DNA of 64,000 bases, taken from contig NZ_CP051167.1 in the NCBI RefSeq assembly GCF_012295525.1, positions 3,703,501 through 3,767,500 on the forward strand. Direction: 5' to 3'. A program made the position numbers and the translations under genes. The notes below the pieces were generated by a model. That model saw nothing but the letters and a program-made list of their open reading frames with translations, made no database searches and was not told the origin of the DNA. Shown piece after piece: positions 14,176-61,148 of the stretch (position 1 is the first letter of the stretch; the number at the start of each line of letters is the position of its first letter). This DNA comes from Oxynema aestuarii AP17 (lineage in GTDB: Bacteria > Cyanobacteriota > Cyanobacteriia > Cyanobacteriales > Laspinemataceae).

Positions 14176-17100
14176 ATGTCTGCAAGCTGGCAATTTTTGT
14201 TAAACGTTCCCGTTGAAGTCCGAGCGATCGCCCATTATGACTGGCGTCTCGTCGTCGTTTCGATCGTCGTGGGGATGTTGGCATCTTATACGGCGATCGA
14301 ACTGAGTCGCAAAGGGCACTACGAACGTCGCCTCGAAGGGTGGGTCTGGGTCATACTCAGCGCGATCGCGATGGGGGTGGGGATTTGGTCGATGCATTTT
14401 GTAGGGATGTTGGCGCTCAAATTGCCATTTTTGTTAAGTTACGACATCCCCACCGTCGTCGGTTCCCTGGTGGTGACGGCGATCGCCTGTGGTGCGGGGT
14501 TGGTCTTGGTCAACCGATCGCCGTGTGGTTTTAAAGAGTTACTGTTAGCGGGCACCATTCTCGGAGAGGCGATCGCCTCGATGCACTATCTGGGAATGTG
14601 GGCGCTGCAATTACCGAATCATATCGACTACGATCCCTTATTCGTGGTATTGTCGATCGCCGTGGCGATCGGCGGTTCGGAAATCGCCCTCTGGTTGGCG
14701 TTTCCCGTCGGTTCCGGGCGATCGCAACCGTCGAGCAAACTCGGCGGCGCGACGGTCTTGGGTTTGACCATTAGCGGGATGCACTATATCAGTATGGCGG
14801 CGGTGCGCTTTCGCTGGCCCACCGGCCCGATCGCCCTCGGGACCGATTACACCCTCGATCGCGAAGATTTGGCGATCGCGATCGCGATTACGACGTTGAC
14901 CATTTTAGGCTTAACGAGCCTCAATTCCGTGGTCGATCGCCATTTAGCCACCCAGCAAGAAACCCTCGATCGCCTGCGAACCTTTATCCGAGAAATGCAA
15001 GTCGGCGTTTTGTTATTGACGCCGGATTTAAAAATTGTGCTGTCTAACCCCGCCGCCGCGCAACTGTTGGGCGTCACGGTCGAAGAACTGCAAGAAGAGA
15101 CGATTTTTGAGGAAACCTGGGCGATCGTGCGCGAAGATCGCACCCCGTTCCTGAAAGCAGAACGTCCGGTGCAACAGGCGATCGCCACCGGGTCTCCGGT
15201 GCATAATGTGGTGATGGGAATTCAGAGGCGTTCGCGCGCCACCGAGACCGCCGAGGAGGCGATCGCCCCCGTGGAACGCTGGTTGTTGGTCAATGTCAAT
15301 CCGATCGCCAATGACGAGGGGGTTGTAGAACACGCGGTCTGCAGTTTTATCGATATCAGCGATCGCAAACATGCGGAAGCGGAATTATCCCAAACCCAGA
15401 ATTTTCTCAATTCCGTGGTCGAAAATTTGCCTGTCGGCGTGTTTATCAAAGAGGCGGCGAATCTGACGATCGTTTCTTGGAATAAAACCAGCGAACAACT
15501 GTTCGGTTACCCGGCGATCGCGGCGATCGGTAAAACCGACGCCGACTTATTCCCCCCCGCTCAAGCAGATTGTCTCGGCGCGATCGATCGCCAAGTGCTC
15601 GATAACGCCGAGGCGATCGAAATTGCCGCCCAATCTTTGGAAACGCCCGATCGCGGAACCCGCCTGCTACAAACCACCAAAGTCCCAATTTTCAACGAAT
15701 CCGGTCAACCCGAGTACGTCCTCGGGATCGCCCAAGATATTACCAGCGCCCAACAAGCACGCGAGGAACTGCTCAAGCAAAATCAGCGATCGCAACTGTT
15801 CGCCGAATTGACCATTAAAATTCGCCAGTCCCTCGATATCGGCGAAATCCTTAAAACCACCGTCGAAGAGGTACGCCAATTTCTCGACACCGATCGCGTC
15901 ATTATTTATCGTTTGTGGCCCGACGGGTCGGGAACGATCGTCACCGAAGCCGTCATTTCCGACACGATCCCGATTTTAGGTCAGGAATTCGACGATCCCT
16001 GTTTTAAAAATAAATATACGGAAAAATATCGCTCCGGACGGGTGACGGCGATCGCCGATATCGAAAATGCCAACTTGCAAGACTGTCATATCCACCTGCT
16101 CAAAAGTTGCGGCGTCAAAGCGAATTTAGTCGTCCCCTTACTCGAACGCGAAAAACTCTGGGGTTTGCTGATCGCCCACCAATGCAGCCATACCCGACAG
16201 TGGACCCCGTGGGAAATCGAGCTGTTAGAACAGTTGGCCAATCAAGTGAGCATCGCTTTAGCACAAGCGCAATTACTCGAACAAGAAACGCGCACGTCGG
16301 AACAACTCACCCAACAAAATATCGTCCTCGACAAAACCAAACGGGCCGCAGAAGCTGCCAATCTCGCCAAAAGTCAGTTTCTCGCCAGCATGAGCCACGA
16401 AATTCGCACGCCGATGAACGGAGTCGTCGGGATGGCCCGCTTGATGTTGCAAACCAACCTGACTCCCCAACAGCGCGAATACGCTCAAACTATTTGCACC
16501 AGCGCCGAACACTTGTTAGCGATCATTAACGATTTGCTGGAGTTCTCCAAACTCGAAGCGAAAGAAATGAAGCTCAACACCATCGGTTTCGACCTGCAAG
16601 AGTGCATGGAAGCGGTGGTCGATCTGATGGTGACTGCGGCTCAAGAAAAGGGATTAGATCTCACGTTGTTGATTCACAGCCAAATCCCGCAATTCTTAAT
16701 CGGCGATCCGGCCCGGTTGCGCCAAGTTCTGCTCAATTTACTCAACAATGCGATTAAATTTACCGATCGCGGCGAAGTGATTTTACAAGCGGTTTTGGAA
16801 TCCGAAACGCCCCAAAAAGTGCGGATTCGCCTGTCGGTGAGCGATACGGGCATCGGCATCGTCCCGGAAGAAGCGCACAAGTTGTTTCAGTCGTTTTCTC
16901 AACTCGATGCTTCTTCAACCCGCAAGTATGGCGGGACTGGATTGGGTTTGGCGATTTGCAAGCAGTTGGTGGAACTGATGGACGGCGAAATCGGCGTCGA
17001 AAGCGATTGGGGGAAGGGATCGACGTTTTGGGTGAGCATTCCTTTTGCCAAACAAGTTGGGGTGGAAAGTGAGCCGTTACCGCCGGAGTTGAAACGGGCG

Positions 17101-18333
17101 AGGTTACTGGTAGTGAGCCGCCGGGAGATCCAGCGCCAATCGGTGCGCTACATGGCCGAACGCTGGGGGATGGAGAGTGACGAAGCCCGGGACGGAGCCA
17201 GGGCGTTAGACAAAGTGAGAATAGCAGGGGCGGACGATCGCCCTTTCAATCCGATCGCGATCGAATTGGACTTGTTCGATCGCGATCTTCAGGAAGCCTT
17301 GCCACGGGTGGCGCAGGAGGCGAAAATTTTGTTGATGACGCCTTTAAATCGTCGTTCTCAAGCTCAAGCGTTAGTAGCGATCGGGGCCTGTCACGGCTAC
17401 GCGATCGAACCGATGCGTCCGTCTCGTTTGTTGGAACGGGCGATCGCCCTGTTAGGATCCCCGGAAACGCAAGCGGCGAACGCCCAATCCGGCATTCATA
17501 CTTTACCTGCAAAGCACGCGAGGGACCTTCCCCCGTCGAACTTCAAAATTTTAGTCGCCGAAGACCACAAAATTAACCAACAGGTGATCTCTTCCCAACT
17601 CGACGTCCTCGGTTATCGCGCCGACTTCGCCGACAACGGCGCCGAAGCGTTAACTCGATTGACCGAGAAAGACTACGATCTGGTCTTGATGGACTGTCAA
17701 ATGCCCATTAAAGACGGTTACGAAGCTACCCAGGAACTTCGCCGCCAGGAAGGGAATCGCCGTCATACCATTGTCGTCGCTTTAACCGCTCATGCCATGC
17801 CCGAAGACCGCCAAAAGTGTTTGGCGGCGGGGATGGACGACTATATCAGCAAACCTGTCAATTTGGAACGCTTACAAGCCGTGTTAGAACGCTGGAAACC
17901 CGAACCCGCTCAAGACGCTCCCCCCTACGAACCCCAACCTGTCGGCGAAGTGTCCCCTCCTAGTTCTCCGGAATCGGCGAACTGTATGGATCTCAAACGC
18001 CTCGAACAGGTTTCGCGGGGTAAATTGGCGTTAAAACAACGGTTACTCGAAACCTTTCTCGACGCCAGCGATGCGGATTTAGCCGCCACTCGGGAAGCGT
18101 TAGATCGGGCCGACGCGGACGCGGTGGAAAGTCATATTCACCGGATTAAAGGGGCGGGTCGCAACATCGGCGCGCGATCGCTGTCCGATCTCGCCGCTCA
18201 AGCCGAAAAATTAGCCCGCAACGGCGAATTAGACTCAATTCCCGACGTCCTCCCCCACCTCGATCGCGAGTTGGAGCGAGTCCGCCAGTTCTTACACGAA
18301 CAGCTCTCCCCTTCTCCCCCCAGCGAAGCATAG
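14176..18333 (+). CDS. MHYT-PAS-GAF hybrid histidine kinase with receivers and HPt; candidate DXCF cyanobacteriochrome
   Basis: A 1385-residue phosphorelay protein. Domains in order: MHYT membrane sensor (about 20-245, with the repeated motifs MHFVGM, MHYLGM and MHYISM), two PAS domains (about 265-395 and 400-520), GAF (about 540-705), HisKA (His741 in [11 protein letters not shown]), HATPase ([20 protein letters not shown]), a first receiver-like domain (about 975-1095) lacking an obvious phospho-acceptor Asp in context, a good receiver (about 1123-1240, Asp1173 in LVLMDCQMP, Lys1226), and a C-terminal HPt (His1322 in HRIKGAG). The GAF domain has DPCF (Cys609) and DCHIHLL (Cys637-His638), the cysteine pair of DXCF cyanobacteriochromes. 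Bilin binding is an inference. MHYT domains are proposed to bind metal and sense gases. Confidence 0.93.
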
Positions 18334-18419: not shown

Positions 18420-21400
18420 TCAACTTTCCAAGTCCCAGGGTAACTCTAAGGTAAAACAGGTGACCCTCGAAGCGCTTTCGACGGCGATCGCCCCGCCGAG
18501 GTGGGTGGCGAGTTTCTGGACTAATGCCAGTCCCAAACCCGTTCCGCCTTGTTTCCAAGGGTCGGCGCTGGGAACCCGGTAAAATTTCTCGAAGATATGA
18601 CCGATCTCGTTCGGGGGAATCTCGACTCCGGTATTGACGACTTGTAATTGGAGGCGATCGCCCGCATCGCACGCCACCAGACGGATACTTTCCCCGGGAG
18701 GCGTATACTTACAGGCATTGTTGAGTAACTCGCTGACGATCCGCTCGAAACCGGATACATCCGTGGTCAGGGTCGGTAAATTGTCCGCCAGTTCCAGGGC
18801 GATCGTTTGTTGGCGATTGCGGGCGCGTTCGTGGAAGCCGTGCAAGAGTTGGGGCAACCATTCGCCGAGGTCTACGGGGGTAAACTCCTTCGCCAGACCG
18901 GAATCGAGCCGTTGCAAGTCGAGTAAGTCGTTAATCAGGCTGATTTCGCGATGGCATTCGTCATCGAGGATTTGGAAATAGCGCGACAATTTGGCGGCGA
19001 TCGCCTCTTGTTTTTCCAGATCGTTCGTGAGATTCGGGTCGTACTGTTTGTAGCCAATTTTTAACATTTGGATCGCCATTTTCATGTTAGCCATCGGCGT
19101 TCGCAGTTCGTGAGAAACCGTGCTGAGAAATTCATCTTTGAGACGGTTGACCTTTTCGAGTTCGCGCACTTGAGCGAGAGAGGCTTCGTAAAGTCGGGCT
19201 TGGCGCAGGGCGATCGCGCAGTGAGCGGCGACTTGTTGCAAGAGACGAATCTCGATGTCGCTCCAGGTTCGCACTTGGGAGTGCAAGACGCTCAAATGGC
19301 CGATGGTACCGCGATCGTCGAAAATCGGCACTAAAATGCGCGCTTGCAACATCCGGTCTAAATCCGGACAGGCTAAATCGCCCAAGGCTTGGGGGTCGAT
19401 TAACGGAACTCGTCCGCGATCGTAGGATAAGAAATACTCGCCGCGCCAGAGTTGCTCGTAAATCTTACGCGCGTCGGCAATCTTGAGGACTTGTCCCAAA
19501 CCGGAGCCGACATCGTCGGTACTGTATTCGTAACAGATGGTCGCGGTGGTGCGATCGCCGTCGTACAACGCCGCACAACAGTAATCGATCTCTAGCACTT
19601 GGGCAATTTCGCGGACGGCGGTTTGCAAAATTTGCCCTTCGTCCAAACTTTCGCCGACTTTTTGGGTAATGCGCCGCACGACGTGAGCGAATTCTAAAGA
19701 TTGCTGTAACTCGGCGGTGCGGTTGCGAACTTGAATTTCTAAATCGCTGCCGATTTGGCGGACCGTTTCGTATAATTCGGATTGTTCGATCGCGATTCCC
19801 AATTGAGTCGCCAACTGTTGCAGCAAGTCGATTTCCTGGGGCAACCACTGGCGCGGTTGGCTACAGTGATGGGCGACGAGCAAACCCCACAAGCGGCGTT
19901 GGGGCGATTCGCGACTCGGATCGCCGGAAGGGTGACCCTGACCGAGGCTTTTAACGATCGGGACCACGAGGTTCGCTTTGACTTGGAACTCGGAGAGTAA
20001 GGTTTTGTGACATTGGCTCAACTTCGAGCGCTCCAGATCGGCGATCGCGCCGATGCGCCCGTCGAGATAACTCTCGACGAAGCGATCGTTAAAGCAAGTA
20101 TCTTTAATTTCCATCCCCAAGAGGGGCAACCAACCGGGTTCGACGGACTCGACCACGATTTGACCGTTCCAATCCGGTTTAAACTGATAAATCAAGACGC
20201 GATCGGCCTGTAAAAATGGGCGCACTTCACCGACGGTGGTTTGCAAAATGTCGTCGAGGTCGAGAGACTGGCGAATCCGGTTTTGAATTTTCACCATCAA
20301 GCGTTCGCGGCGAATTTGGCGCGCCAGGGCCATTTCCGCTTGTTTGCGATCGCTGATGTCGGCGATCGTCAGTAAGATTCCCGCTTTGCTGTCTCCCGGT
20401 TGCCCCGCGTTCGCCGAAACGATCGTCCAGCGATCGCCGCCGTCGGCTTGACGGAAGCGAACATCTTGTTGTTGGGTGTGACCTTGGCGGACTTGTTCTA
20501 AAAATAGCTCGGCCCAAGGGCGATGCTTCGGGTCTACAAACGACAGCCACGGTTTGCCGATCGCCTGTTCGACGCGCACGCCGAGCATCCGGGCGAGTTG
20601 GCGGTTGATAAAGGTGGTGTTCCCTTCGGCGTCGAGACTCCAGACCCCCTCGGTCATGGTTTCGACGATGCGGCGGTAACGTTGTTCGCTCTCGCGCAGG
20701 GCTTCTTGGGCGCGACGGTTGGCGGTGATGTCCTGGAAGTAAACCGAGAGGCCCTCTCGGGCGGGATAAGCGTGAATGGCGAGCCAGCGATTGTCCTCGG
20801 GATAGAAGGCTTCAAAGGCGATCGAGACTTGTTCGGCGATCGCCCGTCGGTATTCGGACTCGAACGCGGCGGCGATCGCCTCGGGAAAGGCATCCCAGAA
20901 CGATTGTCCGATCGCCTCCCCTTGTCGCTCGGTCAACAGGCTTTCGGCGGTGCGGTTGATATAAGTCAGGCAAAAGTCAGCGTCGAGGGCGACGAAGCCA
21001 TCGGCAATGCTTTCGAGAATGGCGATCGTCTGTTCGTGGGACTCGCGCAAGCGGACGTCGGCTTCGACGCGGTAGGTAATATCGCTTTGAATGCCGATAA
21101 AATGGCTGACTTCTCCGGCTTCGTTGCGAATCGGCGAAATCGACAGTTCGTTCCAAAACATGCTGCCGTCTTTGCGGTAATTGCGCAAGATGCCGTGACA
21201 GTTCTGACCTCGGGCGATCGCCCAGCGCACGGTTTCCAAGCTGCTCTGGTCGCGATCGCCCCCTTGCAAAAAGCGGCAGTTGCGACCGATCGCCTCCCGG
21301 GCGGAGTACCCGGAGATCTGCTCGAAACTGGGATTGACATAAACAATCGGATTGTCTCGCGATCGAGCGTCGGTAATTACGATCCCGTTGGCGCATTCGG

Positions 21401-23309
21401 CGATCGCCCGTTGCATGATGTACGCCCTGGCGTCGCTGCGTTCTCGGTCGATCGCCGCCGCGACAATATTGGCGATCGCCTCTAAAAAATGCAAGTCGTC
21501 GGCACTGAACTCCCGCAATTTGCGGCTGTGAACCCCCAAAATGCCCACGAATGGAACCTCGGAGACTAACGCCAATTCCGGATGCGTACCCGATGGCGGC
21601 GTCCGATGGGGAGGATGGCCGATAATGGCGGTCATACCGGAGATGACCCCGTGTTCGTGCAGCAGGGGCATTCCCTCAAATCGGGTTTCGGTTCTCAGGT
21701 CTTGGACGATCGTGCTTTCGCCCTGTCTGAGGGTATACCCGGCTTGGGAACGTTGACTCGCTTCGACCCTGGCCCGACCGACAATCCCACTCTTCCAACC
21801 GACTCCCGCCCGCACGAGGAAGCTGGCGGGGGCGTCGCGATCGTCTCCAGGGTCGGGAAGTAGTTCTAAAATCTTGCAGTATTCCACCGCGAGGGTGTCG
21901 GCGACGAGTTGCACCGCGTCTTGCATCAGCACGGCGGTGGGAATCCCTTTGAGGGCGCGCTGACCGAGTTGGGCGACGGCTTGCTGCTGGCGGGCGCGCG
22001 ATCGCACGTCGGCGACGGCTTTCGCCCGAGCGCTGATATCGCGCACGAACACTTGAATGCAGGGTCGTCCGTCGTAGGCGATCGGCATGGCGGTCACTTC
22101 CACGTCGATCGTCTCGCCGTCGAGGCGGATGAATTGTTCTTCCACGGTCGGGGTCGGCTGTCCGGTCGTGACGTTCTCGATCCGTTGGCGCACGATTTCT
22201 CGATACGGCGGCGTTACGAAGTCGAATACCGAACGTCCTTCGAGTTCGCCCGCGACGGCAGCCCCCAACAAGCGGGCGGCGGCGGCGTTACTCCAGATAA
22301 TCTGACCGTGGTGGTGAATGAGGATCGCTTCAAAGGAGAGTTCGAGTAACTCGCGATAGCGCCGTTCGCTGTTTTCGAGGGCGTCTTGGGTGGCTTCGCA
22401 CTGCCTCGATTGCGAGCAAGGGGCGGCGTCGCTGGCGCTGGCGTCGTCTCGTTCCCAGAGTCCGGCGATCGCCTCGGCGAGCCATTCGAGGGGTTGGATC
22501 TGTTCGGGAGACCAATAGTGGGAGCCGCGATCGTCGTAGAGGCAGATCCGCCCTTCGGGTAAGGCGGTTCGGGGATTGTCTGTGGCGGACCCCGGGGCGG
22601 GACGAATGGGAATGCACAGGAGGGCGCGCACTCCTGCCTCGTCGAGGGAGCGGTCCGATCCAATCGCCCCGGCGGGGAGAGCCTGACAATCGGCGATCGC
22701 CACGACTCCGGCTCCCGTGAATGGCGGGATGGCGTCGAGCAGGACGGTCCATTCGTCCCGTTCGGCGCAACAGTCGGGCACTCGTCCCCAACAGCCTTCG
22801 AGGCGCACCGCACGAGGGAGATCGAGATCGCCGCCAACGCGCCATCGGGCGATCGTCGCCCCGGTCACTCCCAAGGCTTTGCCGATCTCCGCCAAGCAGT
22901 GATTCCAGTCGATCCGTCCGGCGGCGATCGCCCGCCACATCGGTCTGATGACTTCCTGGAGGCCGACCCCGGGCTGGGACTCGTTCCTCGGCGGCTGGGC
23001 GGTCCGACGGCAGGAGAGGCGCACCCGGCGATCGCTTATCTGGCGCGCGATCGTCGCTTCGACCCAAATCGCGGCTCCATCTCGGGTTGTCAACCGGAAG
23101 GGGGGGATCGTCATGGGGTTGGGGACGAGGTTGCCGTTGCGATCGCCCAGAATTGGGGCTGAGGTCTGCAACACGAACGGGCGATCGCGCCCATCGACGT
23201 AGTCGATCCAGGGCGTACCGATTAAGCTTGACTCGGCGTAGCCCAGGATGGCGACGATTCGCGGATCGACGGCCACAATTTGACCTGACGGTTCGAGGAT
23301 TAAGTCCAT
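18420..23309 (-). CDS. Multi-PAS/LOV/GAF sensor histidine kinase; candidate dual blue-light and bilin photoreceptor
   Basis: A 1629-residue soluble kinase. The frame is open 86 codons further upstream, but that part is Arg/Pro-rich and unlike a domain, so ATG 23309 (MDLILEPSGQIVAVDP, a PAS start) is chosen. Order: PAS (1-100), GAF-like (110-290), PAS (315-430), GAF (435-630), PAS of LOV type (630-750), PAS (755-870), PAS (872-995), GAF (1005-1180), GAF (1195-1375), HisKA (His1400 in TVSHELRTPM), HATPase ([15 protein letters not shown]). The LOV domain has the full flavin signature GRNCRFLQG (Cys678), NYRKDG and FWNELS. The GAF at 1005-1180 has DTCF (Cys1072) and LSQCHKTLL (Cys1100-His1101), as in DXCF cyanobacteriochromes. 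No receiver is attached. It converges on the hybrid kinase gene. Confidence 0.93.
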   Translation of the reverse strand: MDLILEPSGQIVAVDPRIVAILGYAESSLIGTPWIDYVDGRDRPFVLQTSAPILGDRNGNLVPNPMTIPPFRLTTRDGAAIWVEATIARQISDRRVRLSCRRTAQPPRNESQPGVGLQEVIRPMWRAIAAGRIDWNHCLAEIGKALGVTGATIARWRVGGDLDLPRAVRLEGCWGRVPDCCAERDEWTVLLDAIPPFTGAGVVAIADCQALPAGAIGSDRSLDEAGVRALLCIPIRPAPGSATDNPRTALPEGRICLYDDRGSHYWSPEQIQPLEWLAEAIAGLWERDDASASDAAPCSQSRQCEATQDALENSERRYRELLELSFEAILIHHHGQIIWSNAAAARLLGAAVAGELEGRSVFDFVTPPYREIVRQRIENVTTGQPTPTVEEQFIRLDGETIDVEVTAMPIAYDGRPCIQVFVRDISARAKAVADVRSRARQQQAVAQLGQRALKGIPTAVLMQDAVQLVADTLAVEYCKILELLPDPGDDRDAPASFLVRAGVGWKSGIVGRARVEASQRSQAGYTLRQGESTIVQDLRTETRFEGMPLLHEHGVISGMTAIIGHPPHRTPPSGTHPELALVSEVPFVGILGVHSRKLREFSADDLHFLEAIANIVAAAIDRERSDARAYIMQRAIAECANGIVITDARSRDNPIVYVNPSFEQISGYSAREAIGRNCRFLQGGDRDQSSLETVRWAIARGQNCHGILRNYRKDGSMFWNELSISPIRNEAGEVSHFIGIQSDITYRVEADVRLRESHEQTIAILESIADGFVALDADFCLTYINRTAESLLTERQGEAIGQSFWDAFPEAIAAAFESEYRRAIAEQVSIAFEAFYPEDNRWLAIHAYPAREGLSVYFQDITANRRAQEALRESEQRYRRIVETMTEGVWSLDAEGNTTFINRQLARMLGVRVEQAIGKPWLSFVDPKHRPWAELFLEQVRQGHTQQQDVRFRQADGGDRWTIVSANAGQPGDSKAGILLTIADISDRKQAEMALARQIRRERLMVKIQNRIRQSLDLDDILQTTVGEVRPFLQADRVLIYQFKPDWNGQIVVESVEPGWLPLLGMEIKDTCFNDRFVESYLDGRIGAIADLERSKLSQCHKTLLSEFQVKANLVVPIVKSLGQGHPSGDPSRESPQRRLWGLLVAHHCSQPRQWLPQEIDLLQQLATQLGIAIEQSELYETVRQIGSDLEIQVRNRTAELQQSLEFAHVVRRITQKVGESLDEGQILQTAVREIAQVLEIDYCCAALYDGDRTTATICYEYSTDDVGSGLGQVLKIADARKIYEQLWRGEYFLSYDRGRVPLIDPQALGDLACPDLDRMLQARILVPIFDDRGTIGHLSVLHSQVRTWSDIEIRLLQQVAAHCAIALRQARLYEASLAQVRELEKVNRLKDEFLSTVSHELRTPMANMKMAIQMLKIGYKQYDPNLTNDLEKQEAIAAKLSRYFQILDDECHREISLINDLLDLQRLDSGLAKEFTPVDLGEWLPQLLHGFHERARNRQQTIALELADNLPTLTTDVSGFERIVSELLNNACKYTPPGESIRLVACDAGDRLQLQVVNTGVEIPPNEIGHIFEKFYRVPSADPWKQGGTGLGLALVQKLATHLGGAIAVESASRVTCFTLELPWDLES

Positions 23310-24007
23310 CGATTTACCTATGCGATCGAGCGTGCAACATTTGACGCTTCCCTTGGGTTGAGTCCGGCGTTCCAGGGCATCTGTCTCCCCAACTCCGGGG
23401 GATGGGAATTCCTGGGACGACGAGTGGCGATCGCCCCGTGGCGCTGGTCGGTTTCTCGGGCGTTTTAGGTATATTCGCCCTTTACAGCGTTGCGGTCGAG
23501 GTCTTTTGAGATAATACGGGCGATCGCGGCGACCGATCCCCTCGTTTGGTTCGCTGTTGCGTTTCATTGCTTGAGTTCTATCCCTGTGTCCGATCGATCT
23601 CAGGCTCAGATCCGGTGCCTGTTGCTACCCGAATCGCACCACCGCCCGCCGTCCGGGCATCCTTTGCTCGAACGTACTTTTGGTGACGGTTATTCATGGC
23701 AAACGGGCGATCGGAACGGTTGCTCGGTTCTCAACAGCCCTCAGCCCAGGTCTGGCGTGCGATTTCCCCTGCAGTTCTCCCCTGCGTCAGATGTCTTCTC
23801 GCTCGCATCGAGCGCAGCTTACAACGACTTCAAGCTCAATGTAGCTAAAAACACTGAAATATACAAATACCAATTCTGGAGATTGTGGTCGTTACCGACC
23901 TCGCCCCCAATTATTAGTATTTACAGCACAAAATACCCGAGTGCGATTTTCTCAATCCAATGCGCTCGAATTGCCGTGCGTATTGAATTGTTCTCCACCG
24001 CGACCGC
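23310..24007. other. 698-bp region without a recognisable gene
   Basis: This lies upstream of the LOV/GAF kinase and downstream of the pseudouridine synthase (both minus strand). A 173-codon frame exists on the plus strand (23490-24011) but shows no motif, and its composition looks like chance in GC-rich DNA. HIP1 sites are present. The promoter of the kinase is presumably here; no clear -35/-10 pair was picked out. Confidence 0.6.
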
Positions 24008-39065: not shown

Positions 39066-41750
39066 CTAATTGACGGCGGCTAAACTCCGTTCTTTTTTTT
39101 TGGTCGCTTCGGGCAGTTGACGCACGGGAATTTCGATTCTAAATTGAGCCCCTTGTCCGGGAGCGGAAATACATTGGAGGCTGCCTTTATGTTTTTCGAC
39201 GATAATTTGATAGCTGATCGACAGTCCCAATCCGGTCCCTTTGCCGACGGGTTTGGTGGTGAAGAAGGGGTCGAACAAACGGGCGCGAACCTCGTGATTC
39301 ATGCCTTCGCCGTTGTCGGAAATGGCGATCGCCACCTTGTCGGGAATCGCGCGATCGCTCTCGGGGGTCCACGGTTGGCCGTCGGCTTTGAGGGGGAAGG
39401 TTTGAATTAAAATCCGGTTGGGATGTTGGGCCATTTCTTCCCGAGAGCGTTTTTTGTTATAACCTTCCAGGGCGTCGATCGCGTTGCCGAGAATATTCAT
39501 AAACACTTGATTTAACTGCCCGGTATAACATTCGACCCGAGGTAAATCCCCGTATTCTTTAACAATTTCGATCGCGGGATGACCGGGTTTGGCTTTGAGG
39601 CGGTTTTGTAAAATTAACAGGGTACTGTCGATGCCTTCGTGAATGTCTACCCGTTTCATTTCCGCTTGGTCGGTACGCGAGAAATTGCGTAGGGAAAGGA
39701 CGATTTCGCGAATGCGATCGGCGCCGATTTTCATCGAGTTGACGATCTTGGGCATATCTTCGCTCAAGAATTCGAGGTCGATTTGTTCGGCATAATCGGC
39801 GATCGCCGCCACCGGATCGGGATAGTGTTGTCGGTACAGTTCGATCAGATGCAGTAAATCTTCGGTGTAGCCATCGACATGAGAGAGATTGCCGTAGATA
39901 AAGTTAACCGGATTGTTAATCTCGTGGGCGACTCCGGCGACCAGTTGACCGAGACTGGACATTTTCTCGCTTTGGATCAACTGACTTTGAGTTTCGCGCA
40001 GTTGATTTAAGGCGGCTTCGAGTTCTCCGGCTTTCATTTGGGCGCTGACCGCCGCGAGGCGCGCTTGTTCGTACAGTTGAGCTTGTTTGATGGCGATCGC
40101 GAGGCGATCGGCCAACTGTTCGAGCAGGTACATTTCCGAAGACAGCCAACTGCGCGGTTGCTGGCATTCTTGAACCACCAACACCCCCCACAACTCGGCA
40201 CCGATCGCGATCGGGACGCTCATGCTGGCGTGGACTTGCAGGTGCTGCCAGTAGGCGAGTTGGTCCGCATCGAATCCGGCGTGGCGCACGTTGTCGATCG
40301 CCCGCACGCTGCTATTGGGATGCTGTTGTAGGTATTGTTCGCAATAGCGGCAGAAATCATCGTCGGGTCGGACAATTTCGCTCAGGGAGGGGGTGACGCT
40401 GTTTTCTTCGACGACGATTTTGCCCGATCGCCCGGGTTGGAATTGGTAAATCGCCACGCGATCGCTGTCGAAGCAGGAGCGCACTTCGCGCACCACCGTC
40501 GTCAAGATCGTTTGCAGGTCGAGGGTTCGCCGGATCTGCTCGCCGATGAAGCGCAACAGGGATTCCCGTTCCATCGAAGCGCGGGTTTGGGCGTACAGAC
40601 AGGCTTGTTGGATGGAAATGGCTAGTTGGTCGGCGACGGCTTGGGCGAGTTCGCGGTCGTGTTTCGACCAGTAGCGCACCCGAGAACATTGGTTTAAATA
40701 TAAGATTGCGTGCAGGATGCCGTTCGCTTGCACGGGAACGACGAGGGAGGATTTGATCTCGGCTTTCTGATATTCCGGATTGTGAGTGCCGATGCGCGAG
40801 TCGGCGCTGACGTCGTTGACGATCGCGGGTTGGCGGTGCTGGATCACCCATTCCGAAATCGGTCCGTGGGTGTCGAAGTCGTCGATCGAACTGGCAAACG
40901 GTTCGCGGCAAGTTTCAAACAGGTGGGCGCGCCGAAAGGCGACATCCGGGTCGAGATCCGGGGCGAATAGCTCGCGATTGAGCCGTTTGAACGAGTCCAA
41001 ACCGCGATCGCGATCGCCGTGGTTGGGTTGTTCGACCAGGTGAACCAAGCAGCGATCGATTTCGAGGGCTTCTAAAACTTGTTCGATCGCCTGGGTTAAA
41101 ATCGTTTCGAGGTCGAAGCTTTGGCGCGTTTGGCTGGTAATTTGGTTGACCAGTCGTTCTCGTTGGGCTTGTTTTTTGACGCGATCGTAGAGTTGGGCTT
41201 GATGGATGGCGATCGCCAGTTGTTGGGCGATCAGTTGGACGAATTCGAGTTCGATCGCCGACCACTCCCTGGGTCGCGCCTCGAACCCGCCGATATAGCC
41301 GCATCTGCCTTCGGGAGATTCGACGGGAACGAACAGGTAGGCGATCGCCCCGAACGGCGTCGCCGCTTCCCCCTCCGTCTCCCCAGAACTCGCGATCGCC
41401 TCGCCGCGCTCGATCCCGGCGGCGACGGCTCCGAGGCGCTCGACCGGATAGCTACCGAGCGGGCCACTGGGGCGATCGTCGCTCCACCGTTCGCAGACGA
41501 CCTGCACCGTCCGGGACTCCGGGGTATACCAAAAGAAATTACAGCCGTCGAGATCGAGTAACACCGACAGTTCGTTCACTGCCGTCTGCACGATCGCGCT
41601 AAAGTCTCGGGAGTTCCAAATTTTGCCGATCGTGGTTCGCAGCACGGTGCTGCGCTCTTTGGGGTCTTGAATCTCTGTCAGTTGCAACGGAGGCTCGGAA
41701 GATAGAGGTGGACGACTGGGAGAAAAAAGAAAAAATGAATTTAAGATCAC
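39066..41750 (-). CDS. Triple-GAF sensor histidine kinase
   Basis: An 894-residue soluble kinase. GAF-type domains lie at about 45-185, 205-385 and 400-560, then a coiled coil. The HisKA motif is LGQLVAGVAHEINNPVNF with His609, and the HATPase has GNAIDA, SDNGEG and GKGTGLGLS. Unlike the two kinases further left, its third GAF lacks the Cys-His bilin motif (the matching place reads DADQLAYWQHLQVHASM), so bilin binding is unlikely. There is no receiver or transmembrane segment. The frame begins with GTG at 41750 and no good ribosome-binding site was seen, so the true start may be a little downstream. Confidence 0.92.
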   Translation of the reverse strand: MILNSFFLFSPSRPPLSSEPPLQLTEIQDPKERSTVLRTTIGKIWNSRDFSAIVQTAVNELSVLLDLDGCNFFWYTPESRTVQVVCERWSDDRPSGPLGSYPVERLGAVAAGIERGEAIASSGETEGEAATPFGAIAYLFVPVESPEGRCGYIGGFEARPREWSAIELEFVQLIAQQLAIAIHQAQLYDRVKKQAQRERLVNQITSQTRQSFDLETILTQAIEQVLEALEIDRCLVHLVEQPNHGDRDRGLDSFKRLNRELFAPDLDPDVAFRRAHLFETCREPFASSIDDFDTHGPISEWVIQHRQPAIVNDVSADSRIGTHNPEYQKAEIKSSLVVPVQANGILHAILYLNQCSRVRYWSKHDRELAQAVADQLAISIQQACLYAQTRASMERESLLRFIGEQIRRTLDLQTILTTVVREVRSCFDSDRVAIYQFQPGRSGKIVVEENSVTPSLSEIVRPDDDFCRYCEQYLQQHPNSSVRAIDNVRHAGFDADQLAYWQHLQVHASMSVPIAIGAELWGVLVVQECQQPRSWLSSEMYLLEQLADRLAIAIKQAQLYEQARLAAVSAQMKAGELEAALNQLRETQSQLIQSEKMSSLGQLVAGVAHEINNPVNFIYGNLSHVDGYTEDLLHLIELYRQHYPDPVAAIADYAEQIDLEFLSEDMPKIVNSMKIGADRIREIVLSLRNFSRTDQAEMKRVDIHEGIDSTLLILQNRLKAKPGHPAIEIVKEYGDLPRVECYTGQLNQVFMNILGNAIDALEGYNKKRSREEMAQHPNRILIQTFPLKADGQPWTPESDRAIPDKVAIAISDNGEGMNHEVRARLFDPFFTTKPVGKGTGLGLSISYQIIVEKHKGSLQCISAPGQGAQFRIEIPVRQLPEATKKKERSLAAVN

Positions 41751-55265: not shown

Positions 55266-58200
55266 CTAGAATTTAATGTAATTTCTAGGATTTTTGGGTA
55301 CGCCATTCACGCGAATTTCAAAATGTAGATGGTTGCCAGAAGAGTTACCTGTACTGCCTACATTGCCAATTACTGTTCCAGCGCTTATATAACTTCCTTG
55401 CTGGACATTAACATTTGATAAATGAGCATAACGAGTTTCTGTTCCATCACCATGATCTATCTTGACATATTTGCCATAACCATCATTCCATCCAGTACCA
55501 TTATAGGCAATAACAACCTTTCCACCTTTAGCTGCTTTTATAGGAGGAGTATTGTTTCCCGTAGACAAATCTATACCCTTATGAGTCCCGCTAATTGTTC
55601 GGGGAGTCCCAAATTCGTTCAATGAGTAAATTGCATACCAACTACCGGCGAGGGGATTTTGCCAAGATCCATTACCAGGATTAGAATTACCAGGCGGGTC
55701 AATATATTTACTGTTGGACTTGGGATTTCCGTTAATATAAGCACTCGCCACCCATTTATTTGTGCCCTTAATTCGGAACCAGCGATTATCCCATTGCTTG
55801 GCAATTGGATCCCAATGAGAAGTGCCGCGAGACCAAGCATCAAAAGTTAATGGCGTATTGGAACCATAAGAACCGACACGATTATAGTTCGTTCCCGGCC
55901 CACTGCGGATGTTAAGGGAACTGACCACTGACATCACTTTGCCCGTGAAATCGGTGGGACTTCCCCCGTTATTGTTAGGGGGATTGATGTACTTACTATT
56001 GGATTTGGGATTGCCGTAAATGTAAGCACTCGCCACCCATTTATTTGTGCCTTTAATCCGGAACCAACGGTTATCCCATTGCTTGGCAATTGGATCCCAG
56101 TGAGAAGTGCCGCGAGACCAAGCATCAAAGGTTAATGGCGTATTGGAACCATAGGAACCGACACGATTATAGTTCGTTCCCGGCCCACTGCGGATGTTAA
56201 GGGAACTGACCACTGACATCACTTTACCTGTGAAATCTGTAGAGGTAGCAGTCGTCTTAGGTTGGGAAACTGGAGAAGAAGTAACGGGTTTACCCGTACC
56301 TGTTTGATAATTGACAGGTAGATACACGACCTGGCCGACTTTTAAGCGTCTTGCTTCGGCAGCAGTGAAGGTAGTCCCATCAGCTTTTTTAATTTCTCGC
56401 CAGCGATTGCCGTCACCTAATTTGCGTTGAGCTATAGCCCAGAGCGTATCCCCTGATTTGATGATGTACTGTTGGTTTTTTCCGGGGGTAGCTGGAGGCG
56501 AATAAGAAGTATTTGTATCGGAATTCACCTTGTTTTTAACCGAGCCTTTGTAGCGGAAATAAACGGGGCTTTCCGAACCAAAACCCTGACTCACACCCAT
56601 GTTTTTACCATTGGTTGCTCCGGCTTGGGCAATTCGGACATTAGACCCAGAACTACCAGGGATGACAACTGCAACATGACCGACCGAAGACGCTAAAACA
56701 ACTTGACCATTATTAGCACTAGAAACTGCTTCAGCAGCACTAATTTTCTCCCAACTTCCATTTCCACCTGCATTCATAAAGTTGAGTAATCCTGCAGCAC
56801 TGAAGGGTTTATTGGGAGTATTCGTTCCATAAATTGGATGGGGTTTTGTGTACGAACCAGCACTGCCTCCATATCGAGGAATAGGGACGCCCAACTGGTC
56901 TAAAACATCGGCTGCGAACCAGTTGCAAAAAGTTTCTTTAACTCCATCACCCGTAATATCCCGAGGAAGATAGTACCATTGCAAGGGATTAACCTTATCG
57001 ACTGCATCAAGAATGTGCTGCCCATTATTGCTCGGTGGCGTCGGAGTTGGAGTGGCTGGTGCTGATACTTGTCGTGGAATCAGTATTTTTTGACCCAGAT
57101 AAATCAAGTTGGGGTTAGCAATACCATTTTTCTGGGCAATAAAGTTGTAATAAAGAGCAGAACCATTCCCCATTGTATTTAGCGCGATCGCACTGAGAGT
57201 GTCTCCTGATTTAATGGTGTACGACTCCCACTGATAATATTTCCCTTGAAATTCAGTGGAAGCAGCACGTTCAGTTGGGATGACCTTCCCTTCCCCACTC
57301 CAGGTATCTGGAATCACAGTCGCTAAAACATCATGTTCTTCCCCCGTGGTTGCTTTAGCTAACATGACAGCTCCCGCCATATTCAGCAAACCCGCACCCG
57401 TTTCACTATCCCAATTCGCATCGTTTAAATCGGTAGCCGTATCTTTGACAATTTCGATGACTTGCCGATAGCTGAGACTGGGATTCGCTGCCCAAACTTG
57501 GGAAATTGCCCCGGTTACTTTCGCAGTAGCAACGGAAGTTCCGGCCATCGTTCCCAGACCATCACCCATTAAAGATAACTCGGGATTATCGGTCGTTCCG
57601 CCCGGAGCCATGATATCTAAACCCCGTCCGTAGCTGGAATAATTAGTGCGTTCAAAAGCTTTGGAATTGGCAATTTCATCGTTGACTCGTTCGGCTGCAC
57701 CGACAGTGATAATATTGTCAAATTCTTGCGAAGATTGACCCAGCGCCGACATCACTGCCCCATCATTTCCTGCTGCAACGACCAGCATCACATTATTTTG
57801 TCGTGCATACTCGATCGCCGCTCGTTCCATCGGCGTAAACTCATAACGAGTTGTCACATTCCCCTCAGCATCAATCTGAGTTAAATCTAAACTCAAATTC
57901 ACCACCGCATTCGGTTGTCCCGACTCCCGCGCTGCATCGACAAACTCAACTAACGATTCTGCCCATTTCCCAGAACCAACAGCCCGTCCCGCCCAAATTG
58001 GCGCAGTATTGTTAATCCCATCAATGCCGATTCCATTATTTTGGGTGGCGGCAAGAATTCCTAAAATATGAGTGCCGTGTTCGTTGCCTTCTCCTGTCGC
58101 TAAAGTGGGGTCATCATCTCCATCAACGCGATCTTCTCCCCAGGTAATCCGCGAGTAATCGAGATCGGGATTATCCCCACTAAATCCCGTATCAATAATA

Positions 58201-61148
58201 CCGACTAAAGGCTGATTTTCTAAGGGAAAATTAGGCTCGATCGCCCGTCCGCTAACAATCGCCTCCGGTGTGGACTTGACGACCCATTCTTCTAACCGAG
58301 AAATCGCCGTATTCGCTCGGTCTTCAATCGCTTCAGTCGGATTTTCTAGACCTTGAGAAATGACACCCAAACGGGCGATCGCCGTTTCAATACTGCCCGT
58401 ATCGGTGAGGTCGGGATCTCGCGATCGCTGCTGCAAGACCTCAATTAAATTATCCAGGCGATCGCGCAATTCACTGCCACGATTTTCAACAGTTATCTCA
58501 CGGATTGATTCCAACGATTCCAAATTAGAAAGGTCGGCAGGCGCGATCGTTGGGGGAGGCGTTATAGCAGGTAGCTCTACCGACAATGTCGGAGTTTCAA
58601 TCGTGTTAACCTTGTCCTCTTGATTTTCCAGATCTACCGTTGTATTTCCATCCGAACTTTGTTCGATCGCCTCCGAAGTTTCCGTCACCGAAATCGGAAT
58701 GTAAATTTCATCTTCAACCCTCTCGATTTCAGGCTGATTTTCGTTAGAATTAGATAACTCTTCAGCGCTGTCTAAACCTGGCTCACTCCGATCGACGGTT
58801 TCTACTTCCTCACCCTGGGAAGCTTCAACAGAATTGCTATTTTCAGAAGATTCATCGTCCAGATCGTCGGTATTTTCCGCTCCAATCGGTTCGTCATCAC
58901 TCAGACGAGTGGGTAATAACGGATCGGGATCTTCAGTTTCGGGATCTTGCTCGTTCGAGTCTTGAGAATCAGCGATCTCTGTTGTTGGTGTTGCTACAAC
59001 CGTTTCCCCCTCTTCAGAACTAGAATTAGAAACATTCTCTTCAGATTCGCTATTCTCAGAAGTTACACTTTCTTCTTCTATCCCTTCATCAAAATCATTC
59101 TCGGTTGTTTCATCGGTTTCTAACTCATCGTTGACTTCTTCAGAACCCGATTCTCGATCGTTCGAGTCTTCCAAATCGGTCTCGAAATCTTCCTCAAAGG
59201 TTTCCGATTCCGATTCTCCAAATAAGTCTTCTAATTCGGCGATCGCCTCGTCCAGATCGTCATAATTAACCGTCGGTTGTTCGGGAGTGATATACGGCTG
59301 GATATAGTCGATCAACGCTTGTCCCATATCACTCGTGCGCCAATCCTTCTGTGGATCGACCACATCATTCATGTGAGCTGCAACGCCTTTCGCTCCTCGC
59401 ACTTGGAAGATAATATCGTTGTAGTCGCGATCGGTACCCGCATCGACGCGCAAATCTTCCCAAGCAAAGGCACTTCCATCTCCCGTAATATCGGCAATTT
59501 GGCCGACATGATACTCGTCATCGGGATTGGCGGTGGCGAGGGAAAATAGGGGACGACTGGCACCACCGATCGCCGGATCGTTCGCCACGCGCTCGATCGC
59601 CCCATTCGGCACCATCATGAGAAAAAACTTGTCTCCGGGGCGCATGGCAAAGGTTTTCACCCCTTGATAATCCCCCTGATTCCACTGGCGTTCGCCCAGA
59701 GATGTATGAAATTTGGCTCCTTCGGTGCGATCGTCGATCGCGATGTGACCCAATTCCGACTCACTTAAGGCACGACGAGCCGCCTCTTGTATAAAATCGA
59801 CCGAACCCGGTTCGTACTCTTCCATTCCGGACAAACTGACGATCGCCACCTGTCCCTGATAGCGTCCGCCATCGAAGAGGTAGTCAATACCGACCTCACC
59901 GCTTTCATCCACGGTAAAAGTGCCTACGTCAAAATTAATATCGGACTCACTGATATTGGGATCGACAACGGGATCGCTCTCACTTTCTCCGGTTTCCTCC
60001 GTCGCAACGTCCTCCTCGGCATGATTTTCGGTCGTATCGGTCGATTCAGCTTCGGTCTCTTCCTCGCCGTTGTCCGAACTGTCCTCGGTGTTGACTTCCT
60101 CATCATTTTCAGTGAGATTAGCTTCAGTCGGATCGTTTAATTCGGCTTGCGTGTCCTCGTTGCTGCTGTCGGAACCCGCGTCACTGCTAGCTTCTTCATG
60201 TTCTGCTACTGAGTCATCGGCGCCGGATTCGGTAGATAAATCGGTTTCATTATTTTCTGTACTATTATTTTCTGTATCGTCAATTTCGGTACGATCGCCC
60301 GTCTCATCTCCATCATTTTCGGCGATCGTCTCTTCTCCTTCGTCGCTCTCACCTTCTCCTTCTTCCGAGGATTCGCTAACCGTCTCTCCAGCCATTTCAT
60401 CAGTTTCACGGTCAGACTCGACAGAATTCTCGGACTGATTTACCGCTTCAGTGGGAGCATCATCGCTACTATTTTCATCCTCTTGTTCGTTCACCGTAGA
60501 ATCGCTGGATTCCCCAGAGCGATCGTCTGCTTCCGTTTCGGAATACACCCCATTAGTTGGGTTTAAATTGCTGGTTTCCGACTCATTCTCGGCATCGGAA
60601 CGATCGTTATTTTCTTCGGATTCGGTAGTTATTTCGCGATCGCCTTCCTCGATTGTATCTTCATTAGATAGCCCGGAGTCATTCTCTTGCTCCTCAGATT
60701 CTTCCGAACTATTTGACTCTATATTTTTATCCTTATTCTCATGAGTAACAGAGGTTTCATTTACGGTATCTTCGTCAGCTTCTCTGTCAATCCCCGGATT
60801 AGTAATAGGATCCCTTTCCGCTTCTTCTGTCAAGCTTGATGTCTCTTCACCAAAAGGTTCTTGGGTCACCGGATCGCGATCGGAATCCGTCGTTTCTTCA
60901 TCCGTATCTGTCCCAGGAGATGAACTAGTTTCCATTTCATCCCATGAGGTTGCCGTCGGATAGGGATTGAAATTCTCGTTAGATTCTCCATCAAATCCAG
61001 CGCTTTTAGTGAATTGGTCTTCCGGTTCACTCGATCCGCTACTGGTCGGTAAAGATGAGAGAGGATCTTTTGGCAATCCATCCAGTAAAGGATCGCCGCC
61101 AAAATTTTCTTGGATAACATTATTGGTAGATGTACTATCGAAAGTCAT
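55266..61148 (-). CDS. Giant acidic multi-protease surface/cell-wall protein (DUF4114, subtilisin, LysM, CHAP-like, SH3b, M23)
   Basis: An intact 1960-residue protein. Order: acidic Glu/Ser/Asp/Thr-rich region (about 60-400); DUF4114 domain (about 405-595, with FAMRPGDKFFLMMVPNGA and DRDYNDIIFQV); second acidic region (625-850); helical linker (865-955); subtilisin S8 domain (980-1265, Asp986 in GIIDTGF, His1024 in EHGTHILG, Asn1128, Ser1205 in GTSVATAK); LysM (1309-1350); CHAP/NlpC-like domain (1370-1535, Cys1408 in ETFCNW, His1491 in SSVGHVAVV); second LysM (1551-1612); two SH3b domains (about 1640-1715 and 1735-1810); M23 endopeptidase (1850-1955, His1856, Asp1860, His1919, His1940, His1942). 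No N-terminal signal peptide, transmembrane helix or RTX repeats are visible. The ATG has AAAGGAT upstream. LysM and SH3b bind peptidoglycan in other proteins; the role of the whole is unknown. Confidence 0.93.
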   Translation of the reverse strand: MTFDSTSTNNVIQENFGGDPLLDGLPKDPLSSLPTSSGSSEPEDQFTKSAGFDGESNENFNPYPTATSWDEMETSSSPGTDTDEETTDSDRDPVTQEPFGEETSSLTEEAERDPITNPGIDREADEDTVNETSVTHENKDKNIESNSSEESEEQENDSGLSNEDTIEEGDREITTESEENNDRSDAENESETSNLNPTNGVYSETEADDRSGESSDSTVNEQEDENSSDDAPTEAVNQSENSVESDRETDEMAGETVSESSEEGEGESDEGEETIAENDGDETGDRTEIDDTENNSTENNETDLSTESGADDSVAEHEEASSDAGSDSSNEDTQAELNDPTEANLTENDEEVNTEDSSDNGEEETEAESTDTTENHAEEDVATEETGESESDPVVDPNISESDINFDVGTFTVDESGEVGIDYLFDGGRYQGQVAIVSLSGMEEYEPGSVDFIQEAARRALSESELGHIAIDDRTEGAKFHTSLGERQWNQGDYQGVKTFAMRPGDKFFLMMVPNGAIERVANDPAIGGASRPLFSLATANPDDEYHVGQIADITGDGSAFAWEDLRVDAGTDRDYNDIIFQVRGAKGVAAHMNDVVDPQKDWRTSDMGQALIDYIQPYITPEQPTVNYDDLDEAIAELEDLFGESESETFEEDFETDLEDSNDRESGSEEVNDELETDETTENDFDEGIEEESVTSENSESEENVSNSSSEEGETVVATPTTEIADSQDSNEQDPETEDPDPLLPTRLSDDEPIGAENTDDLDDESSENSNSVEASQGEEVETVDRSEPGLDSAEELSNSNENQPEIERVEDEIYIPISVTETSEAIEQSSDGNTTVDLENQEDKVNTIETPTLSVELPAITPPPTIAPADLSNLESLESIREITVENRGSELRDRLDNLIEVLQQRSRDPDLTDTGSIETAIARLGVISQGLENPTEAIEDRANTAISRLEEWVVKSTPEAIVSGRAIEPNFPLENQPLVGIIDTGFSGDNPDLDYSRITWGEDRVDGDDDPTLATGEGNEHGTHILGILAATQNNGIGIDGINNTAPIWAGRAVGSGKWAESLVEFVDAARESGQPNAVVNLSLDLTQIDAEGNVTTRYEFTPMERAAIEYARQNNVMLVVAAGNDGAVMSALGQSSQEFDNIITVGAAERVNDEIANSKAFERTNYSSYGRGLDIMAPGGTTDNPELSLMGDGLGTMAGTSVATAKVTGAISQVWAANPSLSYRQVIEIVKDTATDLNDANWDSETGAGLLNMAGAVMLAKATTGEEHDVLATVIPDTWSGEGKVIPTERAASTEFQGKYYQWESYTIKSGDTLSAIALNTMGNGSALYYNFIAQKNGIANPNLIYLGQKILIPRQVSAPATPTPTPPSNNGQHILDAVDKVNPLQWYYLPRDITGDGVKETFCNWFAADVLDQLGVPIPRYGGSAGSYTKPHPIYGTNTPNKPFSAAGLLNFMNAGGNGSWEKISAAEAVSSANNGQVVLASSVGHVAVVIPGSSGSNVRIAQAGATNGKNMGVSQGFGSESPVYFRYKGSVKNKVNSDTNTSYSPPATPGKNQQYIIKSGDTLWAIAQRKLGDGNRWREIKKADGTTFTAAEARRLKVGQVVYLPVNYQTGTGKPVTSSPVSQPKTTATSTDFTGKVMSVVSSLNIRSGPGTNYNRVGSYGSNTPLTFDAWSRGTSHWDPIAKQWDNRWFRIKGTNKWVASAYIYGNPKSNSKYINPPNNNGGSPTDFTGKVMSVVSSLNIRSGPGTNYNRVGSYGSNTPLTFDAWSRGTSHWDPIAKQWDNRWFRIKGTNKWVASAYINGNPKSNSKYIDPPGNSNPGNGSWQNPLAGSWYAIYSLNEFGTPRTISGTHKGIDLSTGNNTPPIKAAKGGKVVIAYNGTGWNDGYGKYVKIDHGDGTETRYAHLSNVNVQQGSYISAGTVIGNVGSTGNSSGNHLHFEIRVNGVPKNPRNYIKF
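55671..56240 (-). repeat. Two tandem 285-bp copies encoding the SH3b domains
   Basis: The copies at 56240-55956 and 55955-55671 differ at few, mostly third-codon positions. Each starts at TDFTGKVMSVVSSLNIRSGP and ends after GNPKSNSKYI. It is a recent internal duplication of one SH3b domain with its linker. Confidence 0.9.

Follow-up and report, generated by a model that had tools for sequence, protein, structure and literature searches.

We identified a gene for a 1629-residue histidine kinase in a 64,000-nucleotide stretch of the genome of Oxynema aestuarii AP17 (hereafter the window; the genome is a single contig of 6,357,750 bases). The kinase likely carries two light sensors in series, a flavin-binding LOV domain and a bilin-binding cyanobacteriochrome (CBCR) GAF domain of the DXCF type, with both driving the kinase output. 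The two photosensory signatures are present in this order and are conserved in collinear homologues, the CBCR domain could be modelled with the expected fold, and genes for making bilin are found in the genome. The architecture looks built for reading the colour of light, and not its brightness alone.

The gene occupies positions 18420-23309 of the minus strand (open reading frame list and translation). An earlier interpretation of the window made from its letters (the sequence-only reading) had given the same open reading frame (ORF) and length, both correct on re-reading the sequence, and the residues it named are all in place: GRNCRFLQG at 675 (with Cys678), NYRKDG at 710, FWN at 718, DTCF at 1070 (with Cys1072), and Cys1100-His1101. 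The longest frame of the gene starts at an ATG at 23567 and encodes 1715 aa. Since third-position GC is low in the first three 30-codon blocks of this longer frame (0.53, 0.57 and 0.57, compared to 0.68 from codon 301 on), the start at 23309 chosen in the sequence-only reading is favoured, without being proven.

The domain order according to Pfam is PAS-(weak GAF)-PAS-GAF-LOV-PAS-PAS-CBCR-GAF-HisKA-HATPase, and the kinase is apparently soluble, as Pfam gives no membrane domain. Upstream of the LOV domain we found a PAS domain at residues 4-88 (23046-23300, on the minus strand like all features of this gene; PAS_3 with 29.3 bits for a cut-off of 25.6, and PAS_11 with 28.1 bits for a cut-off of 25), a possible GAF at residues about 140-282 (22464-22892; E 0.055 and 14.4 bits, below the Pfam cut-off of 22.4), a PAS at residues 328-426 (22032-22328; PAS_9, E 2.9e-14) and a GAF at residues 461-620 (21450-21929; Pfam GAF, E 4.8e-11). 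Two additional PAS domains separate the LOV domain from the CBCR, at residues 765-866 (20712-21017; PAS_4, E 7.2e-16) and about 877-985 (20355-20681; Pfam PAS, E 8.7e-14). Besides the two photosensors, four PAS and three GAF domains had been proposed. The four PAS domains, which are above the Pfam cut-offs when the protein is scanned by segment, and the GAFs at 461-620 and 1222-1369 were recovered; the third GAF (about 140-282) falls under the cut-off.

The LOV domain spans residues 631-760 (21030-21419), and the complete LOV signature attributed to it was supported both by its sequence and by its matches to LOV structures, with the adduct-type Cys678 (codon at 21276-21278) and the flavin-pocket residues present. 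The best solved match of segment 615-760 was 7r5n, with an E-value (4.8e-43) that, for a sequence match, is not due to chance; 170 distinct solved sequences were matched at E<=0.001, the best 60 of which include phototropin, aureochrome and a blue-light photoreceptor. Eight residues that presumably act in flavin contact or adduct formation are in place: N677, C678, R679, Q682, R695, N710, N720 and Q741. Among NCBIfam models, YtvA_fam scored 148 bits on residues 631-760 and BluLightHisKinLov 129 bits on the LOV segment, under their respective whole-protein cut-offs of 250 and 450. The structural model of the LOV domain, built from a two-row alignment, was poor (pLDDT 62.4), so that the predicted flavin pocket is read from sequence. 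Across the phylum, 114 of the 141 LOV-type domains sampled have a Cys at the place of Cys678, i.e., a cysteine at the adduct place is usual, but not automatic.

For the GAF domain at residues 1001-1182 (19764-20309), a DXCF bilin-type domain with Cys1072 and Cys1100-His1101 had been predicted, and this is consistent with its CBCR signature and its homology to solved CBCRs. The DXCF motif, D1070-T-C1072-F1073, provides the second cysteine (20091-20102), and C1100-H1101 the canonical bilin-attachment Cys with the following His (20007-20012). Solved CBCRs were the top matches of segment 998-1182 (6oap, E 2.8e-49, a sequence match that is not due to chance; 8k9o, 3.4e-37). The GAFs of cyanobacterial phytochromes gave weaker matches, from 4e-22 (6ozb, 6oza; Cph2 4bwi, 8e-13), which overlap just the weakest CBCR match (6xhg, 4e-20), and plant phytochromes were weaker still (from 6e-9). 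No PHY domain was present among the Pfam matches of the kinase. Judged by these matches, the domain is a stand-alone bilin-type GAF, nearer to CBCRs than to phytochromes.

The stretch with the DXCF motif and the Cys-His pair aligned to TePixJ, whose motif is DPCF, without any gap across both cysteines, and C1072 and C1100 are about 28 residues apart, which is the spacing in TePixJ. An AlphaFold2 model of the domain, built from a 62-row alignment (A2: the window CBCR together with 61 CBCR segments, out of 86 that scored at least 140 bits), had a mean pLDDT of 88.6 and a pTM of 0.85. It superposed on 6oaq with Z 26.2 (rmsd 1.5 over 169 residues) and on TePixJ 4glq with Z 23.2 (rmsd 1.9 over 149 residues), a fold that is not specific to CBCRs, because bacteriophytochrome GAFs reach Z 22-23. 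In alignment A2, the canonical Cys is present in all 62 rows, the DXCF Asp in 57, the DXCF Cys in 59 (absent in 3) and the DXCF Phe in 59, and the canonical Cys is followed by His in 51 rows and by Tyr in 10. As for the chromophore, the bilin-reductase family had one match in the genome, which is PcyA by NCBIfam (355.7 bits, cut-off 206), and haem oxygenase had two; together they make a supply of bilin possible.

The sequence-only reading had suggested that the kinase integrates blue and another colour, which seems too simple. Typical DXCF CBCRs, as portrayed in the part of PMC11284453 available to us, have a blue-absorbing dark state and a green-absorbing photoproduct, with the second Cys bound to C10 of the bilin and phycocyanobilin converted to phycoviolobilin. 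Because a typical DXCF CBCR thus absorbs blue before illumination, blue is probably the colour to which both modules respond first, and the other colour is probably the one that returns the CBCR to its dark state, i.e., green (or similar). A different outcome, with both domains photoactive, would be a CBCR that does without ligation by Cys1072 and responds to light of longer wavelength, so that the protein would sense a clean pair of colours, blue and orange/red. The same source portion reports that use of the second Cys varies in CBCRs, and that in AM1_6305g1 it is dispensable for isomerisation (PMC11284453); however, the window protein has the complete DXCF motif at TePixJ spacing, and its two collinear homologues have DPCF, and we regard this outcome as unlikely.

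These two homologues (L297 in genome G405 and L309 in G441) are intact and come from one genus of another family of the order. They share 85% identity with each other over the aligned part. From residue 317 on, they are collinear with the window protein, except for what by eye seem to be one additional PAS and one additional GAF, with 42-65% identity by domain, the lowest being GAF 455-625 (42% in L297); the L309 alignment spans 333 of the 444 positions of 317-760. A third copy of the collinear homologue (L310 in G431) is interrupted, and a search of the 13 other genomes of the window's family yielded no ortholog. All eight LOV residues listed above are identical in L297 and L309, and so are D1070, C1072, F1073, C1100 and H1400. 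The His that follows the canonical Cys is kept in L309 and replaced by Tyr in L297. Because the LOV residues, the DXCF motif and the canonical Cys are kept, both pockets look maintained.

This conservation bears on whether the LOV domain contributes to signalling. The CBCR alone might control the kinase in vivo, with the LOV domain binding flavin yet serving as a structural or redox-tuned PAS domain without light output. The unit CBCR-GAF-HK is indeed common without LOV: four proteins (L190, L192, L236 and L241) match residues 985-1629 at 47-51% and have no LOV domain in the ORF. Furthermore, the LOV domain is distant from the kinase: it ends about 640 residues ahead of the phospho-acceptor, with two PAS domains, the CBCR and one GAF in the interval, and its coupling to the kinase may be weak for this reason. 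Two sampled proteins (L047 and L081) have a LOV domain with Ser for Cys beside a CBCR. Nevertheless, the eight LOV residues, Cys678 included, are kept in L297 and L309 although the LOV domain is just 56-57% identical between these and the window, and a kinase under the control of the CBCR alone appears improbable to us.

To see how common the pairing is, we searched for LOV domains in 386 cyanobacterial genomes, scoring up to the 10 best candidates per genome, and at least 84 genomes had a LOV match at E<=1e-28. Our counts are based on 141 LOV ORFs, namely the window's and those of 140 further loci among the matches listed, with a LOV score of at least 95 bits and one per locus. The set includes two other LOV proteins of the window's genome (L075 and L126); nine listed matches, all in frames under 600 aa, were left out, and a stricter LOV motif would give 98 ORFs. 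We detected a CBCR-type GAF in 18 of the 141 (at least 112 bits against the window CBCR, the next score being 62, a clean split), and the LOV Cys is present in 16 of these 18. The LOV Cys, the DXCF motif and the canonical Cys-His pair are all present in 12/141, from 11 genomes, 7 genera and 7 families, window included; two of the twelve are altered beside the LOV Cys (DCRFLQ in L050, DCGFLQ in L052). Four proteins (L047, L081, L117 and L140) combine LOV with a CBCR that lacks the DXCF motif and is of the RcaE-like kind, with its Cys followed by Leu; L047 and L081 are those with LOV Cys replaced by Ser, and L117 has two CBCR-type GAFs. Two further variants are L165, with DTCL in place of DXCF, and L107, with a CBCR-like GAF devoid of both cysteines. 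In a reverse sample, picked by likeness to the window CBCR (80 best of 573), one of 82 CBCR ORFs from named genomes contained a LOV domain (L235); several loci reach a contig end. From the 18/141, 12/141 and 1/82 counts, the LOV-CBCR pairing is uncommon but recurrent in cyanobacteria. The uniqueness of the architecture, which the sequence-only reading had implied, is ruled out by the first two of these counts.

We also considered whether the protein arose from two cassettes joined just here. Searches with its front and back halves gave 23 and 63 matches, respectively, with the window alone in both; this scenario was overturned by L297 and L309, which have both halves. In CBCR trees built without L297 and L309, the window CBCR grouped with five LOV-free CBCRs (L174-L178; SH-aLRT 98 and 97), whose output is GGDEF (by Pfam in L174, by eye in the other four). 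On the tree without L297 and L309, a single clade for the 14 LOV+DXCF rows was not rejected by the AU test (p 0.105). The second CBCR tree and the AU test omitted the long-branch rows L126_1_489, L117_0_162 and L107_5_278. The LOV tree left the window unplaced.

The GAF between the CBCR and the kinase core (residues 1222-1369; 19203-19646; Pfam and alignment) belongs to a cysteine-rich family that occurs in CBCR-GAF-HK kinases. At E<=1e-22, 51 of the 373 genomes searched contain relatives of it. Three genomes have at least 8 matches each to this domain. Members of the family (L255-L283) are found before kinases, often behind a CBCR, and have four well conserved cysteines; a CBCR was present in the same ORF at 19 of the 29 aligned loci of this search, for which a short flank was examined. 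Of the 38 members aligned, 30 have Cys1244, 21 the Cys of the "QFC" motif, 31 that of "CPI", and all 38 have Cys1364. The family set is incomplete in the window GAF, where C1244 and C1364 are present and the other two are missing: the "QFC" place is occupied by Tyr1296 (Tyr also in L297, Cys in L309), and the "CPI" place by Val1327 (Cys in both L297 and L309). The window GAF has three extra cysteines, C1245, C1259 and C1314, of which C1314 enters the "CPI" column of the 38-member alignment just via an insert. Four cysteines (C1244, C1245, C1314 and C1364) are common to the window, L297 and L309. The solved structures nearest in sequence are bilin GAFs (best E 5.2e-12).

A GAF of this kind recalls LcyA, a CBCR-GAF-kinase with a [4Fe-4S] cluster in its second GAF, according to the portion of PMC12214013 at hand. 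By that description, the C-terminal CBCR-GAF-kinase order and a GAF with conserved cysteines are shared with the window kinase; in contrast, LcyA comprises two GAFs plus a kinase (PMC12214013). The window GAF lacks two of the four cysteines of its family. LcyA itself was sought via allophycocyanin-type genes in four genomes and was not identified there, the nearest such gene to a GAF-kinase match being at ~10 kb (G332 contig 10). C1244, C1245, C1314 and C1364 could supply four cluster ligands despite the Val at the "CPI" place, and an iron-sulphur cluster in the window GAF is possible, though not likely. A kinase with three cofactors (flavin in LOV, bilin in the CBCR and iron-sulphur in the GAF preceding the kinase core) is accordingly a tentative idea that we rather doubt; if true, one polypeptide would integrate information on blue light, on the ratio of colours and on redox or oxygen state. 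The seven PAS/GAF domains besides the two photosensors (one weak), with this GAF of a cysteine-rich family among them, might also point to a general redox or energy sensor, with neither photosensory pocket loaded and the PAS/GAF domains holding other ligands. Both photosensory signatures are, however, intact and conserved, and PcyA and haem oxygenase are present in the genome, which makes such a sensor very improbable.

The kinase core comprises a HisKA domain at residues 1391-1471 (18897-19139; Pfam E 1.2e-12), with the phospho-acceptor His1400 in HELRTP at 1400, and a HATPase_c domain at residues 1517-1625 (18435-18761; Pfam E 7.6e-23), with LLNNACKY and GGTGLGLA, i.e., the HisKA His and the N and G boxes of HATPase_c are present. 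The first G-box, at residues 1559-1564 (18618-18635), reads NTGVEI, with Asn1559 at its first position, where the usual residue is Asp; Asn is found also in L297 and L309. Next to the gene, and convergent to it with ends 86 bp apart, lies a second DXCF kinase (14176-18333, plus strand), a hybrid kinase of 1385 aa with the Pfam order MHYT-PAS-PAS-DXCF CBCR-HisKA-HATPase-receiver-Hpt, whose CBCR is at 15790-16281 of the window, with DPCF at 607 and Cys-His at 637. Pfam found no receiver domain in the ten neighbouring ORFs scanned; this hybrid kinase has a receiver and an Hpt. Elsewhere in the window, minus-strand genes encode a histidine kinase with three GAF domains (39066-41750) and a 1960-residue fusion of DUF4114, subtilase, LysM, SH3 and M23 peptidase (55266-61148). 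The whole genome (G000) has 100 GAF matches, 3 LOV matches (E<=1e-28) and 10 places matching the window CBCR (E<=1e-40).

For the kinase with LOV and CBCR sensors in series, which we favour, we infer chromophore binding, colours, integration and output partner as follows. The LOV domain would bind flavin, and form, in blue light, a Cys678-flavin adduct that decays in the dark (for LOV adduct chemistry, see the relevant part of PMC4335406). The CBCR would bind phycocyanobilin, likely turned into phycoviolobilin, via Cys1100. In darkness, the bilin is probably also bonded at its middle to Cys1072, and this form would absorb blue or violet. Illumination would break the Cys1072 bond and yield a photoproduct of the green type (or a teal or orange one), which light of longer wavelength would revert. 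The LOV and CBCR signals would travel through helical linkers, the PAS-PAS pair and one GAF to the kinase core, where both sensors would set the phosphorylation of His1400, passed on to a response regulator. Tandem sensors may signal along coiled coils, and an engineered LOV-plus-haem-PAS kinase showed positive cooperativity, as summarized in a section of PMC6798134. Because blue would drive both sensors and the second colour, green, would reset the CBCR alone, the output would report the blue dose plus the blue-to-green ratio.

Our literature search found no report of a natural LOV-CBCR protein, with a coverage that is thin for subscription journals and therefore is not proof of absence. In the review passages available to us, neochromes and Ppr are named as multi-photosensor receptors and CBCR arrays as the bacterial case, and LOV-CBCR proteins are absent from those same passages (PMC9614035, PMC6798134, PMC5812497). 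LOV and bilin-GAF proteins often co-occur in one bacterium, as stated in the part of PMC4844311 that we drew on. The kinase described here shows that their pairing in one protein recurs in cyanobacteria. As a flavin-plus-bilin bacterial kinase with both pockets conserved, it allows a direct test of how signals are combined in tandem PAS/GAF arrays, be it by addition, gating or veto, and it may serve as a natural template for optogenetic kinases controlled by two colours.

To our knowledge, few natural receptors join two photochemistries, namely neochrome, dualchrome and Ppr. Neochrome consists of LOV and phytochrome. All three resemble the window kinase in having two photosensory chemistries per protein; dualchrome is described as cryptochrome plus phytochrome, and Ppr as PYP plus bacteriophytochrome plus kinase (PMC9614035, PMC5812497, PMC11879098). 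Their partner families and organisms are other than those described here, and none pairs LOV with a cyanobacteriochrome. TePixJ and other DXCF CBCRs share with the window CBCR the DXCF second Cys, the canonical Cys-His, the spacing and the fold (modelled here). TePixJ, which we take to have no LOV domain, is a chemotaxis-type protein, whereas the window CBCR lies behind a LOV domain, feeds into a histidine kinase and contains an insert of 16 residues ahead of the LWGLL strand. Finally, YtvA-type and LOV-histidine-kinase receptors have the LOV signature and the pocket residues in common with the window kinase, but here the LOV domain is one of nine sensory domains (one weak), and is placed away from the kinase.
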